Below, piece by piece: positions 2,586-60,400 of a stretch of 64,000 nucleotides of DNA. The DNA lies in NCBI RefSeq assembly GCF_032854445.1, contig NC_088295.1, forward strand, positions 25,965,385 through 26,029,384. Direction: 5' to 3'. The notes beneath the pieces are model-generated. The model saw nothing but the letters and a program-made list of their open reading frames with translations, did no database searches and was not told the origin of the DNA. A program made the translations under genes and the position numbers. Numbering within the stretch: position 1 is the first letter of the stretch; each line of letters begins with the position of its first letter. The DNA is from Liolophura sinensis (lineage: Eukaryota > Mollusca > Polyplacophora > Chitonida > Chitonidae).

Positions 2586-3454
2586 GAATAAGCAATTGTA
2601 CTATCGAAATAATCAAAATATTGTCTTTCAAATTCTCCATTAGCCTAAGGCGCATGCAGAGATGAGTGATAGAAAGGTAATGAAAGAAAGAACATTGTCT
2701 ACTGCTGATGAAACAATTACAAAATCTTAGGAGTATTTGTAAAGATCACAAAGGCATTAATAATAATACACATGTATATAATAGTACAGCTTTCCATGAA
2801 GAAGTTCTGAGCTGTAAAGGAATAACAGTTCTCTCTCAAAAGGATCTATCCTCTATGGTTAACTTGATCATGGCGGCTTGATCAGCTATAAAGTGCTTGA
2901 CTACTAATATAGAATGTAGCCATGTAGATGTGTGAAAGATTGTCAGTAATATGTCAGATGTTCTGCCCTAATGTGTCAGTTTCCTCCATTTATAACAATG
3001 ATTTTAACAATAAAAACAAATATACAAATGGATCATTCTTCAGAATAGTGCTACATTAAACAACAGAATTAAAAACTCTTGACAAAAAAAATCTTTTATT
3101 ATCACAAGACTGAGAAGTATGTTGGTTGATGAAATGACTATTTTCTGCATTATGATGGCTCTTCATTGATAATAGACTGGAAATGCATTCACTTACTCCA
3201 ATAAGTATTTTAGAACACAAATTGAAACAACCTGAAAACATTTGAGGCAATTAAAACATGATGTTTTATCAAGTGCTGGGGTTAATATTTCTAACCCAAA
3301 CATGGAACATTTATCAGGTAACAAACAACTTTGCATACAGCTAAGGCTGAGGGATGGGTTAGGCATAGCATGTCACAAAGATCATTACAAAAAGTCTTTT
3401 CGGATCTCTGCCATTCAAAGACTACAATCTGTAATGCTTCTTGACATGCTACAT

Positions 3455-3862
3455 GTACAACTATTACATGTATAATACATCTATAATAGCAGGCGTCTGG
3501 ATGTGTTGATATGTACAACTATTAGATGTATAATACATCTATAATAACAGGCACAGGGATGTGTTATGTATAATACATCTATAAGAGGGACGGGGATGTG
3601 TTGACATATACAACTACTACATGTATAATAACAGGTACAGGGATGTGTTGACATGTACAACTATTAGATGTATAATACATCTATAATAACAGGCACAGGA
3701 ATGTGTTCACATTACAACTATTACATGTATAATACATCTATAAGAGGGACGGGGATGTGTTGACATATACAACTACTACATGTATAATACATCTATAATA
3801 ACAAATATTATATATATATAATATATGTATATAAAATACAAGGATGTGCTGACATGTGTTGA
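3455..3862. repeat. 57-bp AT-rich minisatellite, about 7 copies
   Basis: Units contain a short palindrome (ATGTATAATACAT), then 'ctataataacaggcacaggg' and 'atgtgttgacatgtacaac'. Units vary by internal deletion. The right end degenerates into an (AT)n tract at about 3808-3835. Confidence 0.9.
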
Positions 3863-14453: not shown

Positions 14454-16004
14454 ATGGAGCGAGAGAGTGGACCATCTATAAAACATGAAGCAGCAATGAC
14501 AAGATACAAAGGTGGAAGTCAGGTCACACCAATGATCACCAGCACGAGAGGTCTGTCACAACCACTGCTAGCCTGGGGCCATGTGTTCAGTAAGCGCCCC
14601 CAAGGCTGGAGGTGTTGGCCCAACAGGCTGATGCAGTGTCGAAAGCTAGGACTACTCTTCCTCAGTATTTATGTTGTCTCCGTGTTTGGAATGTTTCTTA
14701 TCTTCGCCGCCTTGGACCACCAGGACATGTTAAACTTTCAGTCAGCCAGCCGTCGCCTACACTGGGGACATGTCCCTGACTCTCCGCCTAATCAGGTAAT
14801 GTGCCCCAAGGCCAATCAGTCTTCCGTGAACTACATCAAGGTGGACAATAGAATTCAGGTTATATCTGCCTTCTTTGATACTCGTCTTGAACAATCTGAT
14901 TACGTGAGGGCCATTCTAGTGGTAATGGGGAAATTTGGTCTTCCAAAGCTGTATTGCACAGTGCAGGTTGTGAACAGTTCGGACTCCCAGTACATGGTAC
15001 AAAATCTCACAGTAAGGGCTAACCTTTACGAGTTCAATGAAAATCACGAGAGACGATACGGGGGACAACTGTTGTCATGTCCTATCCCCAAGGCCTTGGT
15101 GCTTATGGCCTGTGTTGTAGAACTTACCACTATTTCCAGGCGCTCACCTAACAGAACGGTCAGTGTCACTATGTCCAGCATTTCTACAGACCAATCCAGA
15201 CCCAAGTATAAATTTTCTGTGTGTGTGCCGCCATTGTGGGGCTATGCAAAACCTACACAGATTGTGGAGTTTGTAGAGATTCTGAAACTACTAGGCATTC
15301 AGCATGTTCATTTCTATGTGATGCAAAACAACAATAAACACACATATTTCCCGAATGAGAAGCAAGTGAGGCCGTACTTACAATATTATCAAGACCAAGG
15401 CCATGCTACAGTGACTAAATGGACACTGCCTTCACGTAGTCCAGTGGAAATCTGGTATTATGGTCAAGTGTTGGCTATACATGACTGTCTGTATAACTAC
15501 ATGGGAGAGAGTGAGTATGTAGCTTTCAATGATATAGATGAAATTCTTGTGCCGCGCATTGCCCCAAACTGGAGTGGCCTTATTGACTATCTACAGAGCA
15601 ACAACAACGGCAGTCACTGTGGTTATCGCATTAACATGTCTTTCTTCCCTCCCATGCCTGTAATGGGGCCTGTGATAATGAACAGTGCTTTTCGGTCTTC
15701 CAAAACAACAGACATCAGGACAAAATGTATTGTGCGCCCAGAGAGAATTTTTGAAATGGGAATTCATCACATTAGTAAACAATTAAAAGAGGAGTGGCAT
15801 CCTCTGCATGTGTCTGACAGAGTGGCTCTGATTCACCATTATCGCACCTGTGATTCCATGTTTGGTATGAAGTGTGGAATCATGACTGAAGACAGAACGT
15901 TACTACAACATCAACAGAACTTTAGCAAAAATTACCTTGATGTCATAGAGACAGTCAAAAGACTAAAACTACAGGGAGTTAAAAAACAAGTTGTGAATTC
16001 ATAG
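14454..16004 (+). CDS. GT92-family glycosyltransferase, type II membrane protein
   Basis: The protein has 516 residues. A basic cytosolic N-terminus precedes one membrane segment (about 65-87, LGLLFLSIYVVSVFGMF), as in Golgi glycosyltransferases. A lumenal stem follows, then the GT92 (formerly DUF23) catalytic domain from about 252 to 500: FSVCVPPLWG (254-263), the helix pair VEFVEILKLLGIQHVHFYV, the metal/nucleotide-sugar motif FNDIDEILVPR (358-368; DxD = D360, D362), and a C-terminal LIHHYRTC. There are about eight N-x-S/T sites, for example N121, N184, N233, N394. Characterised GT92 members such as worm GALT-1 add beta-1,4-galactose to core fucose; the substrate here is unknown. The frame is uninterrupted, unlike the fragmented genes nearby. 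The first ATG is used; the frame is stopped upstream. An ATTAAA lies just after the stop (16014-16019). Confidence 0.93.
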   Translation: MERESGPSIKHEAAMTRYKGGSQVTPMITSTRGLSQPLLAWGHVFSKRPQGWRCWPNRLMQCRKLGLLFLSIYVVSVFGMFLIFAALDHQDMLNFQSASRRLHWGHVPDSPPNQVMCPKANQSSVNYIKVDNRIQVISAFFDTRLEQSDYVRAILVVMGKFGLPKLYCTVQVVNSSDSQYMVQNLTVRANLYEFNENHERRYGGQLLSCPIPKALVLMACVVELTTISRRSPNRTVSVTMSSISTDQSRPKYKFSVCVPPLWGYAKPTQIVEFVEILKLLGIQHVHFYVMQNNNKHTYFPNEKQVRPYLQYYQDQGHATVTKWTLPSRSPVEIWYYGQVLAIHDCLYNYMGESEYVAFNDIDEILVPRIAPNWSGLIDYLQSNNNGSHCGYRINMSFFPPMPVMGPVIMNSAFRSSKTTDIRTKCIVRPERIFEMGIHHISKQLKEEWHPLHVSDRVALIHHYRTCDSMFGMKCGIMTEDRTLLQHQQNFSKNYLDVIETVKRLKLQGVKKQVVNS

Positions 16005-40600: not shown

Positions 40601-43600
40601 GTATTCAGTCATCAAGGAATTTAACAGTATGGGAAGGAACTGTTGTAACGGGTCTTCTCATGCATCATTGTTTCATCTTCATCTAACTTACAGTTACCAA
40701 ATGTACAAGTGAAATAGCTATATAAAGACATGCAGAAGTTCCTCATGTATGTATGTATATATGCTTGGGGTTTACCGTCATACTTAACACTTTTTCAGTC
40801 ACAAGACGACAAGGAGTCAGAAAGTGTGTGTACATATATTGCGTCTGACACTGAAGTATCATGCCCAAGGACACTGGACATGACACCCCACCCAGTGACA
40901 TTACCCTAATTCTTCTAATTTTGGGGACAGACAGTAGCAGTGCTGAAAGCACAACATTACATTTCTTTCCCACCTTTTTGGAAAAGTAAAGATATGAGTA
41001 CATGTACATGTATATTGTTCATAAGATGGTCTAGCCATGTGAGAAAAATGAAACCAAATATTCCTGCTACAGTCACACGTGTATTGTTTAGAAAGAGCAG
41101 ACCAGGTGTACTGACACAGGGCTAAACAGTCATCTATTCTTGCTCTAACCTCTCAGTTCTGAGTGCCAAACGAGGCAGCAGCTAGTACCATTTTTAAAGT
41201 CTTTGGCAATATCTGGGTTAGATCCCCAGGTCTCCCAATTTCGAGGCAGACACTTTAACTATTATGACACCTAGGAAAAGTACCTAATAGTATCAAGGGT
41301 ATAAACATGTTCACATCTGAGAAATTTGCATTTAGGTATGTCAGAAAAGAAGACCTAAACAGATATATGTCACGCAGTGATTTTATTCAGCTCATCATAA
41401 AAGATCACTTTCTCAGCAGATCTTCATTTGGACAATTTTATATGCCTAGATATAAAGGAAATAAAATGTTTCAAGTGTGCATGGCAGGAAAAATACTTAC
41501 AAATGTCTGTTGCATATCGCACATGTTCACCATTACAAGTAAGAATAAACTCCTGTGTCTGGGCAAACAGGGTCTCAAAGTCCGGGATATTGGGCAGGTT
41601 ATACTTCACACACCTCCAAAAAACATACAATACAGTGTAATCATCAAATACATCTACACATATATGTAGATAAAGAAGATAAAAAGCTGATCCTAAATGG
41701 ATGCTCTTGTATATTATCAGCTTAAACATTTCACTTTAGAGAGCTTCTATTCACACACATTGGTATCATCTGCTGGTGGTTGTTTAACGCTTAACTTTAA
41801 CAGCTTGGGGCATGTGGGATGAAGGTGCCAACACTAGCAGAATGTGGCCATATTGGACACATAATTACAGCTTGTAAAGTGTGGTCCTGACAGCTAAACA
41901 ACAAAGAGGCTCATTCCACATTACGTTATCAAACCTAATGAAACAATGTGAATACAGTACAACTTAAAAAGTTACAGTAGAACTGGTTCAAATCTCACTT
42001 ACGTTATCAAACCTAACGAAACAATGTGAATACAGTACAACTTAAAAAGTTACAGTAGAACTGGTTCAAATCTCACTTGAACTTCAAATTTAGAAATGAA
42101 TACATCATGCACTGATTGCTTTTTGAGCCATACAAAAATATGACTATTGAAACTACTGTTTTAAAGAAATAAAACCAGCTGTCTTCAATATGCTCTACAG
42201 TAGAAAAGTGCAAATGTCGTTTTGTCATAGGTAAATACATACAAACAGCCTTAACTTTGAACTTTCTCAAATCATCAAACTAAAATATCAGATGACTACC
42301 AGTCCACACACCATTACATTAATATATTTTTGATTCAGATTTAACATCGTACATGTACTCAAGAATCATCCACATTTACATAAAACTTTAATCTAAAGTG
42401 GAAGATTAAAGATTAACTGAATATATGATGAGAAAAAAATCTGAAACATACATGTTTGTCAAAGGCTACTATGTCTCAAATGCTAAATCTGACAATGCAA
42501 AGTAAAAGAATACAACTTACAGTATGCCCAAAACACCCAAAGAATGTTGCTGTATATCCAGTGTGCCCAGAACATTGTCTAGATGGCCAGCATTCCTGGA
42601 CAGCACTTCAGCACTCTTCCCGATAAAGTCACATAATTGTACAAAATTACCTGGAATTTGAAAGTTATACACAACACTGATTTATGTCTTATTTCCATGC
42701 AAAGATATGTGTACAAACATTTTTTACACGTTATTCTTCACATGGAATTTAATATTTTAATTCTCACTAAACAATGGACTTGCTGGTGTTGTGGTGTTTG
42801 AGTTTCAAGGTAAAAGAAATAAACAGGGATGTAACCAGAAAGGAAGGTTCACCCTACCACACACTCGAGCATAAAACAAATTTTACTGAATACACGCATT
42901 ACTCTTAAATCCATTTATATAGCTCTGCTGCTCTTTATCAAATATTGGAAAATAAATATATCAAGACATGTTACTGATACTCTTTTATCGTGGCCCTGGA
43001 AGCAATTCCACCTGATACTGCACCACCTATTACAGAGCATATATCAGTGCACTGGTGAAGAACCAGATGGGTACATGTATAAACGTCCATTATACCATGA
43101 CACATTATATATTTTTGAATACCATGAATGTGCTCTTTTTTAATCTGTTGGCTTGAAAAATGTCCACAGAGCACTTTTTCTGTTACAGTCACTTGTATCT
43201 ATGTTTGAGGTTTTCACAATTTTTCAGGCGTACGATAACAAGCAGTAAGTAGATGTGTGAATATATACTGTGTCTTCTTCTGACCGGATGAGTCCATGCT
43301 GCCAGAGTCCTGTAGCCACTGAGATATCATGCCAAAAATGCCAGACGTGACACCTAACCCTGTAAAAGCGCACTGGCTGACACAGGGCCAATTAGTCCTG
43401 TTCTCTCATCTAACTTCTCAGTGCTGAGTGACAGGTGAGGAACCAACAAGTACCATTTATAAAGTCTTTGGAATGACCCAATCCGGGTTTGATTCTGGGT
43501 CTCAAGGTGGACACTCCAACCATTAGTCACTTGTAGACAGTCAAACCCTGTCAAAAGCCCATCTTCATATTCTGGTCATACCTTTCATTAGACTGGCCCC

Positions 43601-54430: not shown

Positions 54431-57400
54431 TCAGCTAGTTTTTGGATCAGCTATCGCTTTTTCAGGATCACATGTAAAGGAAATTGTGATCGCATACCTA
54501 GTCCCAGATTCCACTTTTTCTACATGGTGAAGGTTTTCAGATCCAGACGTGAAAAAAGACACCCGCCCTGAAACAGAATGACAAAATCTCAGCTAAGAGA
54601 ATGACGTAATATGGCACACGAGAAACCTCTATGTAGTAATTCTGTGGTAAAAAACAAACAGAACATCTTGATTTATTTGATGGGTCTGATGTCACACTCG
54701 AGAAATTTTCGCTTACATGACAGCAATCTAGTTTTTTGGGTGGAGGAAGCCAAAGTGTCTTGGAGTGCCTTGATCTAAAAGACCTAAAATTGATCTAAAA
54801 TTTTGTGCACAAAAGCGCATTTTTAGAGGCAAATAAATTAAATTTACAATTTTCCAGTAAAATATCACCCCATGTTACAAGCAAACCTCAAAACACTTCT
54901 AATACCGATAGAACTTTTAAAATCAGGACAAATGGGCAAGTTAGTCATGGACGAAATTTGGTCATTATGGCCATTTAGGGTACTTCGTGTAAGACCACCT
55001 TGAAGAGCCACAGGAGTGCTGTCAACCACTTATTTGTACCAAGGTCCACGGAATGAAGGAGGCAGTGGAATCTCAAACACACTGTGTCTGAGCAGCTGAA
55101 AGCCAAACATCTTAATCATTTGTCCTACATTTAATATGCAGAAGATCTGCTGTCTGTGGGTGAAAAATGACATGTCATGCGCAACAGCATCCAAGCTGAA
55201 TTTAAATCCCTAAGCCATACAGTAGTTTTATGAGGAACAATAATGAGGTAACTCTGAATAATTATTACTTATTCAGACTTACCTGACTACTGCTATTCAC
55301 AGAACTCCTCTGTGGAGTTTGTACAACCCTCAGAACCACAATTACACCAACTATAAAGGTTCTGAATTAAACTGAAACACTGATCTAAATGTCATCATTA
55401 TTTTTATTCACTGCTGCTCTTCACATTGAATTTAAGTTTTTGTGTGTTGTGCAAGGATGAGTGCAGTCGTAAAACTCCCAGCTTCAACAGCATTGTATTT
55501 ATAACAAGTTGGCATTTAGATATGAAGAATGATGAATCCAAATGTTTTGAGGAAAGAAACAATAAAAATTTCAATACAACTGTCCTGGGTGATTACCTTT
55601 TCTGGGTTCCACAGTCATATTTTGAGCTTTGTCAACAAATATAAACCTTCCCCCTGTGAAATCTTTACCATAGTTGGTCAAATACAGGAGTGATGTGTAG
55701 TGGAAAGAGCCGTAGGTTTCCTGTGAAAAAAACAGCAAATAAGACAAACTCTTTGAATAGGAGGTAAAATGTTTTCAGCAGGTTAATGGTAAATACTGTC
55801 ATTCAGAAAATCTGGAAAATCTAACGGGTACGGTATTACGATTAACAAGCCTACCAGTAGGCCTACACAACAAACAGAATACTATATAAAAGGTGCAGTA
55901 AAGTTTACACTACATGACTGTACTCTTAATAAATGAACTCTTCTCAATCTTCAATCGAATTTCAACTGAGCATAATACAAGTGGGCATATTTATACTTGC
56001 ATCCTCCAGAAGCATTGTCAGATTTTGGAAGTGGGCTAGTGGGCAATTAACAATGGCTGGTATTTTTATGAGCAAAACCTTGCAAGTATGAGGGTGCCAC
56101 TACTAGACTAGACTATACAGTATCTGTATAAAGAAGATGTTTGTTGTCAACATGAGGACGCCAGTTGTCATGTGTAGTATAAGCAGTATCACTGTGAAGA
56201 CCTACACGTGCTTGTCACCATGAGAGTGCCAGTCATGTGCAGTCTGAGCAGTATCACTACGCGAAGACGTAACTTGTCAACTCAAAGGTGTCAGTCGTCA
56301 TGTGCAGTCTAAGCAGTATCACTACGAGAAGACGTAACTTGTCAACACAAGGGTGCCAGTCATCATGTGCAGTCTAAGCAGTATCACTACGCGAAAACAT
56401 ACCGTGTCAACATGAGGGTGCCAGTCGTGCAGTCTAACCTACAGTATCACTATGTAAAGACATGCCCTGTCAACATGAGGATGGCAGTGGTCCTGTGCAG
56501 TATCACTATGTGAAGACCTAAACATGTGCCTTGTCAACATGAGAGTGCCAGTCGTCATGTGCAGTCTAAGTAGTATCACTACGCAAAGACGTAACTTGTC
56601 AACACAAGAGTGCCAGTCATCATGTGCAGTCTAAGCAATATCACTATGCGAAGACGTACCTTGTCAGCATGAGGGTGCCAGTCATGTGCAGTATAAGCTA
56701 CAGAATCACTGTGAAGACACACCTTGTCAACATGAGGGTGCCAGTCATCCTGTGCAGTCTAATCAGTATCACTACCTGAAGATGTAACTTGTCAACACGA
56801 GGGTGCCAGTCGTCATGTGCGGTCTAAGCAGTATCAATACGCAAAGACGTAACTTGTCAACATGAGGGTGCCAGCCGTCCTGTGCAGTCTAAGCAGTATC
56901 ACTACGTGAAGAGTGAGTGAGTGTTTGGAGTTTAGCGTCGTACTCAACAATTTTTCAGTCATATGACGACGAAGGAATCATTAGGGTGCACGTACGTGTA
57001 ATGTGCCTCCTTGTTGCAGGACGGATTTCCACCGCTCTTTTATTTAGTGCTGCTTCACTGAGACAACTTACCGAAGGCAAGTAAGCCGCTCCGCCCGAGC
57101 CATTATACTGATACTGGTCAACCAGTCGTTGCACTATCCCCTTCATGCTGAACGCCAAGCGAGGAAGTTACAACTTCCTCTTTCTTAGGCGTGACTCGAT
57201 CAAGGATTGATCCTGGATCTACCGGTCCCGAAGCGGGCACTACGTGAAGACGTAACTTGTCAACATGAGGGTACCAGTCGTCATGCGCAGTCTAAACTAC
57301 AATATCACTGTGTGAAGACGTAACTTGTCAACATGAGGGTGCCAGTCGTCCTATGCAGTCTAAGCTGCAGTATCACTGTGAAGACATGCCTTGTCAACAA

Positions 57401-60400
57401 AAGGGTGCCAGTCGTTCTGTACAGTCTCAGCTGCAGCATCACTATGTGAAGACATGCCTTGTCAACATGAAGGTGCCAGTCGTCTTGTGCACTCTAAGTT
57501 GTACGATTATGAAGACATATGTTTTCAGCATGACGGTGACAGTAGTCATGAACAGTCTAAGCAGTATCACTATGTGAAGACATACCTTGTCTACATGAGG
57601 ATGCCAGTCATCATGTGTAGTCTAAGCTGTACAAATATGAAGACATACGTTTTGAGCATGAGGGTGCCAGTAGTCATAAACAGTCAACCTTGTCAATATA
57701 GAATGGCAGTCGTCATATGCAGTCTAGGCAGTATCACCATACGAAGACATACCTTGTCAAAATAAGCAAAATTGACACGTGAAGACATACCTTGTCAACA
57801 TGAGGGTGCCAGTACTCATCATGTATAGTCTGAGCAGGAATGGTTGTCATTCTTGAATAAAATGTTGGTTTTGTTAAAAACAACTTTTTGGCTGGAATGT
57901 TGAATTCTTTGGCAATGGTCTGATGAATCCTGTTCTTTACATTGCTGAAAATTCAAGGATCAGTCAGATTTTAACAACAGGCCTTGCATCTAACAAGGAA
58001 TAACATTACACAGAAAGTTCAAATAACAACACATTTAGACAATGCTTATACCTTAAGTTATTTTAAACCCCAAACTGATGCATAAGCCAGAGAAATGGTA
58101 TAACAACACACACACAAAATTCCACACACAATATCTTACTTGTACAAAATAAAATCCTCTTCTGTAAAAAGGTCTTCCTTCATCCTTTTCAACATCCTTT
58201 AACATCAAGATAAATTAAAATAGTCAGTCATGAATTTGTACATATACACATACATTTCAAAACTTTTCATACCATACACTTCTCAGTTTTCTTCATGTAC
58301 CTGTTGTACAGACTATGAATAAAACATAATCCTGAATAAAAGCGATGAGAGACTCAGGGATGAGCTACACAAATGGTCCACATCAGAGTAGTACACATCG
58401 TTTGCTTCTGTGATATTACAGTGCTTGTGTACTACTGAAGAGTTTCTATGAGCACACAGACTGATAATTGTGACGTAATAATGGAAAGAACAAAATAGCT
58501 CATAGCTTCAGACTGTATCATTATAGGCTAGAAGCAATTTTATGAGTTCCCTGTTTAAATTAGATCATTACCTCTTTCCTCAATAAGCTCTGACATTGAA
58601 TATAATGGACTAACCCGTATTTTGAAGTTCTAATATTACTACCACTAACTTGTACATTAGAAGCTTATGTGAGAGTTTACTTACACAAAAATGTTGATAT
58701 ACTCTGTTCCTTTTGACAAAGCACCGGAATGCAAATCTAATATTGATGCCTGACGAAGAGAACAATACTTCAATGAAAGCATTTATACCACAAAAAATAA
58801 AAAAAGGTATTTTCTATATTCAATGTAATACATATTTTATGATTTTCACATGTTCATTAATAAAAACAAAAGCTATATATATGCTGTGACTGTTATATTA
58901 GACCCTGATGTAGGCGAAGAAAATAGAATGAATGTATATATATGTTTAACATGTTTAAATATGAAATAATTCTTGTTCACCATTAACCTGGGCCATCATG
59001 TAACTGCACGAGTAAATCATTTCATCAACCTACTTTATGTGTTTATATTTAATGCAGATGCCAATCTTTTCTCAGATGAGGGAGGGGCCTCCGAGGCTGA
59101 GGTGGTTAGCACTCCAGCGCGGCGCAATGACCCAGAAGCCTCCCACCAATGCCATACGTGGGAAGGTGTGCCAGCAGCCTGCGGATGGTCGTGGATTTCC
59201 CCCAGGCTCTTTCCTCCAGTTTCCCCCCACCATAATGCTGGCCGCTGTCATATAGGTGAAATACTCTTCAGTACGGCATAAAACACCCATCAATTTGTAA
59301 GGGTACCCTTACTGGAGTTATTTATTTATTTATCTGATTGGCGTTTTACTCAAGAATATTTCACTTATACGACGGCGGCCAGCATTATGGTGGGTGGAAA
59401 CTGGGGAAACCCACGAGCATCCGCAAGTTGCTGCCAGACCTTCTCATGTACGGCTGGAGTGGAAGCCAGCATGAGCTGGACTTGAACTCACAGCGACCGC
59501 ATTGGTGAGAATCCTGGGGCATTACGCTGCGCTAGCGCTTTAACTGACTGAGCCACGGAGGCCCCCCCCTTATTAGAGAGTAAAGGTGAGAAACAACTAG
59601 CTTGTGTAACTCTCAAATCAGTGATAGGCACAAGATCAAACAAATAACCACAAAGAAGTTTGAATGAGTTCAATACATATTTTAACAAAATAGACTAACA
59701 ATACAATCAACAATAATATACAAAACAATACAAATATATATCTATATAAAATCCAAAATCCAAATCTGGATGGAAAATTCTGGCTTCCTATGGCGAATCA
59801 GTCCAAGTAATATAGAGTGAGTGAGTGAATGCTTGGGGTTTAACATCGTACAGTAAATATGACTGCTCTCAAATGGATTTGAGTAAATAACTGCTCACAA
59901 GTGGACTTGAATGAATGACTGACTGTGAGCTTCACCACTCCATTGCTCATATTTACACACTAACGTAAAGAAAATTCTGGATGGTTTGATCATAAACATG
60001 TTTACAACACTGATACATATTTCCAGAATGTATACTATATGTACAATGACACTAAACTCATAAACAGTGAAGCCAAAAGAATGCTGGACTGAATTACAGC
60101 GAAGGCTATAATGCAGGTCAGACACTGACAAATTTAAAAAAAAACAAAAATAATGAAAAAATAAAAAAATATAATACAATGTTTAAAGATGGGGTTCTTA
60201 ACAAAAGAAAAAAAATTCTCAGATGACTGAATATTCACTTTGATGTTTTGATACTTACACCTCCACTTGAGCCGCCTAAAGCTAGTCCTTTCATGCCAAT
60301 TCTGTCGAATATACATAAAAGATAGTCATTTGCATACAAAACCAAGTCACAAGTAAATATTTCAATAAAGATTAGAGGTTTACTTCTTATAATTTACAGA

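Follow-up and report, generated by a model that had tools for sequence, protein, structure and literature searches.

Why does an intron of a chiton gene carry about 21 copies of the end of the exon upstream of it, complete with copies of its 5′ splice site, and does the exon's own junction have to compete with them? In the window, by which we mean the whole stretch of 64,000 nt from Liolophura sinensis that was analysed, the gene crossing this region on the minus strand is an OGFOD3-like 2-oxoglutarate oxygenase. The exon at the head of the repeats, its junction and the next exon are placed as follows (a slash marks the exon-intron boundary).

57791-57944, minus strand: OGFOD3-like exon of 154 nt, open reading frame, encoding NVKNRIHQTIAKEFNIPAKKLFLTKPTFYSRMTTIPAQTIHDEYWHPHVDK
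57781-57790, minus strand: authentic 5′ splice site AAG/GTATGTCTTC, intronic part of the seed unit, its use presumed from the gene model
55595-55720, minus strand: next exon (ETYGSFHYTSLLYLTNYGKDFTGGRFIFVDKAQNMTVEPRKG) with acceptor TTTTTTTCACAG, low coordinate approximate

The intron in question thus has its far end at the acceptor at 55721. When joined, the exon at 57944-57791 and two exons downstream of it matched PF13640 (2OG-FeII_Oxy_3) with an E-value of 1.2e-11 and 45.9 bits against a cut-off of 27, while the two exons alone reached 17.6 bits and stayed under this cut-off. A hand-typed human OGFOD3 sequence, the sole oxygenase compared with the window, matched six separate coding stretches of it with E-values from 3.4e-17 to 0.097; some of the repeat units matched this query as well, with E-values of 0.055 and weaker. 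A search of solved structures with a 93-aa query gave no match at E-values up to 1. The exon ends in HDEYWHPHVDK, with a phase-0 junction at AAG/GTATGTCTTC, and carries at its 3′ end an HxD motif, which we take to have the iron-binding role that an earlier reading of the sequence alone had given it.

The repeat of the exon end in the intron is a confirmed observation. Specifically, the units lie head-to-tail from 57780 to 56133 over 1.65 kb, and in each of them exon end, junction and some intron follow one another in the right order and on the right strand.

57781-57839, minus strand: seed segment, last ~49 exonic nt and ~10 intronic nt, homologous to the unit (unit profile E 2.4e-16, with the exon row part of that profile)
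56133-57780, minus strand: tandem array of 21 units of exon end and donor, interrupted by one insertion (alignment and unit profile)
56078-56123, minus strand: possible 22nd unit, degenerate, at the distal end of the array (profile E 0.43, not significant alone)

A unit is made up of ~49 nt of exon and ~10 nt of intron, together with a few bases whose origin is uncertain. As cut by us, 17 of the 21 units measure 63-68 bp and the rest 31, 38, 70 and 73 bp; the three units next to the exon are those of 38, 73 and 31 nt, and the 70-bp unit is the one that bears the insertion. Repeated local alignment of the exon end found 19 stretches in the array whose aligned parts are 80-94% identical to it; of these, 18 scored above 39, the best score among 33 other pieces of the window, while the best score among 200 single-base shuffles was 38. 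With E-values from 0.00056 down to 4.5e-22 the unit profile recovered every one of the 21 units (57767 to 56133), although it was built from these units and the exon, which therefore match by construction. The statement of the sequence-only reading that there are about 21 units copied from the exon's 3′ end and donor is thereby borne out. Its range of 56120-57944 needs correction, as it takes in the genuine exon. Tandem Repeats Finder also reported periods of 130, 193 and 257 bp within the array, as would be seen after duplication of blocks of units.

Misassembly of tandem arrays is common, and a globin repeat of comparable kind in the draft amphioxus genome "appears to be aberrantly assembled" according to a passage of PMC3087553, so that an assembly artefact has to be considered here too. 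We regard such an error as unlikely, and indeed give it only a very slight chance. The units are diverged from each other by about 22% (mean pairwise, 17 units), and the published Liolophura japonica assembly, apparently the source of this sequence, was built from HiFi reads averaging 8,347 bp as stated in PMC11068029, several times the length of the array. Searches of the genome (609,464,459 bases in 632 contigs, one haplotype) found no second copy of the gene lacking the array, with the exons matching this locus alone. DNA searches with the exon end, with 198 nt of the array and, at E-values up to 10, with 193 nt gave no match elsewhere in the genome, an absence that is no proof of the rarity of the sequence.

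How the array arose can be read to some extent from the differences between the units and the exon. The exon codes for part of the enzyme domain and keeps bases that the units lack, which indicates that copying ran from the exon into the array. Over the full alignment, 17.5-28.6% of the columns differ between a unit and the exon (71-83% identity; 17 of 21 units). Several substitutions relative to the exon are common to the units, as is a gap of three bases: this in-frame deletion, correctly noted before as present in most units, occurs in 17 of 21, while three units have a 6-base gap at the place and one does not cover it. Since these derived changes are shared, and since the units are about as distant from each other (22%) as from the exon (17 of 21 units), a single founder is favored over repeated copying of the exon. 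The correlation between a unit's divergence from the exon and how far along the array it lies was not conclusive (rho 0.47, p 0.055, 17 of 21 units).

Taken together we consider it very probable that the array is a minisatellite of the "mirage" type, produced by duplication of an exon end and amplification of a founder, and that its decoy donors are mostly silent. We infer that the founding event was a tandem duplication across the junction. In this event a segment covering the exon's 3′ end and the 5′ splice site would have been duplicated into the intron, one copy with the 3-base deletion would have become the founder, and unequal exchange or slippage may have amplified it to about 21 units. 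A dispersed element has inserted into a unit that was already there, and decay of the units is under way.

56913-57237, plus strand: dispersed repeat of 325 bp inside the array (genome copies and target duplications)

This element, which starts with GTGAGTGAGTG and which we label SINE-like, is bracketed by 13-bp target duplications at 56900-56912 and 57238-57250. Both duplications lie inside one unit, and the element must therefore have inserted into an array that already existed. The stretch 56913-57250, which had been counted as array, accordingly consists of the inserted element and one of its target duplications. Forty of 2291 first-look candidates in the genome were scored for this element, and among those scored were the array locus and 39 near-full-length copies with 95-96% identity, plus one short piece.

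At the aligned donor position the 21 units show GT in seven cases, a displaced GT in one, GC in four and a destroyed donor in nine, in agreement with the series from GT through GC to TTACGT that had been described. GT is found at 57752, 57688, 57648, 57585, 56722, 56659 and 56402, and at 56207 it is displaced by three bases. GC is found at 57457, 57389, 56529 and 56465, and TT at 57323, 57255, 56852, 56787, 56594, 56337 and 56272, all seven reading TTACG or TTACA; the donor at 57520 reads AT and that at 56142 reads AA. The decoys are thus graded, two being identical to the real site over AAG/GTATGTCT, others GC and others dead. With the real donor at 57790 followed by GT copies at 57752, 57688, 57648 and 57585, the real site is the first in a row of repeated donors.

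57743-57780, minus strand: short exon-proximal unit of 38 nt with the intact donor AAG/GTATGTCTTC at 57752 (alignment)
57586-57626, minus strand: most complete candidate cryptic exon noticed, 41 nt, between an acceptor-like TTTGTACAG and the intact donor at 57585

The sequence-only reading proposed that the real junction now faces many decoys. Decoy donors are indeed present, but "many" overstates their number. In predicted pairing with U1, four of the 21 units have a donor that differs from the real site by no more than about 0.6 kcal/mol, namely 57752 and 57585, which equal it at -6.4 kcal/mol, 56659 at -6.0 and 56722 at -5.8 kcal/mol. Sites that pair at -5 kcal/mol or more strongly occur 9 times in the 1308 nt of the array and 355 times in the 63960 nt of the window's minus strand, i.e. 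6.9 against 5.6 per kb. The array hence adds little to the background of decoys. Three sites in the intron pair better with U1 than the real donor, none of them a unit donor: the strongest, TCG/GTAAGTTG at 57071 on the minus strand (-8.9), lies in the inserted element, 56775 (-7.8) is off-register within a unit, and 55854 (-7.7) is outside the array.

These values bear on whether the array donors, or a cryptic exon within a unit (57626-57586), are used in some transcripts, with extension of the exon lowering output through frameshifts or stops. The near equality of four unit donors with the real one in U1 pairing speaks for such use, as does the passable acceptor of the one unit that forms the candidate cryptic exon, inclusion of which would shift the frame. 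Furthermore, in human F7 mutation of the first donor leads, as a passage of PMC6627357 describes, to exon skipping and to activity of downstream intronic cryptic 5′ splice sites. Against it stand the array's scarcely raised density of donor-like sites and the normal splicing reported for published mirages in passages of PMC3087553 and PMC3902484. Extension to any of the 11 unit donors with GT (seven) or GC (four) would also be disruptive: the donor at 57752 adds 38 nt and shifts the frame, and the other ten extensions meet a stop after 18 added codons. This outcome argues against a useful protein and not against use of the donors, and on these grounds in-frame extension of the exon is unlikely as a source of useful protein. 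In sum we consider use of the array in some transcripts rather unlikely.

The mirage-type reading, in comparison, expects that splicing most likely continues from the exon's own donor and that the downstream copies are mostly silent decoys. The first donor, we infer, is the one in use, because exon definition and the 5′-to-3′ order of events would favor the upstream site. Some leakage into 57752 is plausible, since the region around this donor is identical to that of the real donor over 18 nt and only 38 nt away. That RNA structure might sequester the first donors was considered and rejected: the 66-nt region that holds them folds no better than shuffled sequence (z 0.18), with 113 of 200 shuffles folding at least as well. 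On the whole the first interpretation of this array is partly supported.

A rival reading is that decoy donors are harmful and that selection favors their loss through change of GT to GC, TT, AT or AA. The array would then be a molluscan mirage in which the donor dinucleotide changes fastest, and selection would be in the course of disarming its 21 decoy 5′ splice sites. Changes were counted per column on neighbour-joining trees from which the donor columns had been left out (60 trees, 59 of them resampled; 17 units and the exon, 63 columns). Position +1 was the most changed of the 63 columns and +2 the fourth, and none of the 57 other adjacent column pairs changed as often as the donor pair, with 17 or with 21 units. 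Four units, three with GT and one with the displaced GT, are absent from the 17-unit test, a possible bias; a rerun with all 21 units gave the same picture, +1 ranking first and +2 fifth, and by our own calculation about 6 of the 1953 rank pairs are as extreme as this. By entropy, +1 ranked second and +2 seventh of the 63 columns (17 units). However, the test is post hoc, the units are short and poorly resolved, and exchange of blocks between units inflates the counts of change. Column +4, which goes with the TTACG form, likewise ranks among the fastest columns, and the seven TT donors may represent one event spread by amplification. In addition the intact GT donors cluster nearest the exon (57752, 57688, 57648 and 57585), the reverse of what would be seen if the most dangerous decoys had been removed. 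The excess of changes at the donor GT is therefore suggestive only as a sign of selection, and we hold it improbable that selection is disarming the decoys. If it were true, the array would make it possible to measure what a decoy donor costs according to how far it lies from the exon.

The phenomenon as such is already known, and the present array adds a case from a mollusc. In amphioxus, mirages are described from Adh3, from the globins BflGb6 and BflGb9 and from TnC (passages of PMC3087553 and PMC3902484), and similar repeats from PGBD5 (PMC3902484, likewise in part). As in our array, the passages describe minisatellite-like tandem duplications over an exon-intron boundary with splice signals kept in many, but not all, copies. 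They report no effect on regular splicing (PMC3087553; for Adh and TnC also PMC3902484), and if these published cases are a guide, the array may be neutral for the gene. Amphioxus is a cephalochordate, whereas the present array is from a mollusc. For BflGb6, PMC3087553 gives, in the passage concerned, arrays of 3 and 6 units that are 81-100% identical and lie at the acceptor. The 21 units of our array are strongly diverged and lie at the donor, and an element has inserted into the array. That the units here are more numerous and more diverged is a comparison with the BflGb6 copy numbers alone.

A second parallel is intron 7 of human F7, where, according to passages of PMC6627357, the first of many 37-bp repeats contains the authentic donor and normal splicing uses this most upstream site only. 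There too an exon's own 5′ splice site heads a series of homologous repeats. The F7 repeats are described as highly homologous and variable in number, whereas the present units of ~65 bp have diverged strongly, and 9 of their 21 donors are destroyed. Minisatellites have also been described as expanding at exon-intron boundaries in human genes of segmental duplications, where they alter gene structure (PMC2812944, in part). Those cases, in recent paralogs, involve exons or introns that have become longer and introns proposed to be new, while here a change is seen only in the content of the intron. Earthworm metallothionein genes have minisatellite arrays in intron 1, for which the passages of PMC12783039 concerned state no exon origin. 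For molluscs, the titles and abstract openings of the literature found name no case of a minisatellite at an exon boundary. A type of exon-boundary minisatellite seen in lancelets and in human F7 is thus now found in a distant animal group. Its decoys, placed at known distances from the real donor, form a series that could be useful for testing first-site preference in splicing.

Other tandem repeats occur in the window. An array of 17 copies of a 34-bp unit with 90% matches lies at 1836-2417, and tandem arrays with units of about 58 bp lie at 3453-3831. At 41921-42076 a 78-bp sequence is doubled head to tail with 99% identity, which is a recent tandem duplication whose length is close to that of a founder unit. 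The window furthermore contains, at 14454-16004 on the plus strand, an open frame of 516 aa that belongs to glycosyltransferase family 92 (PF01697, E 8.4e-37).
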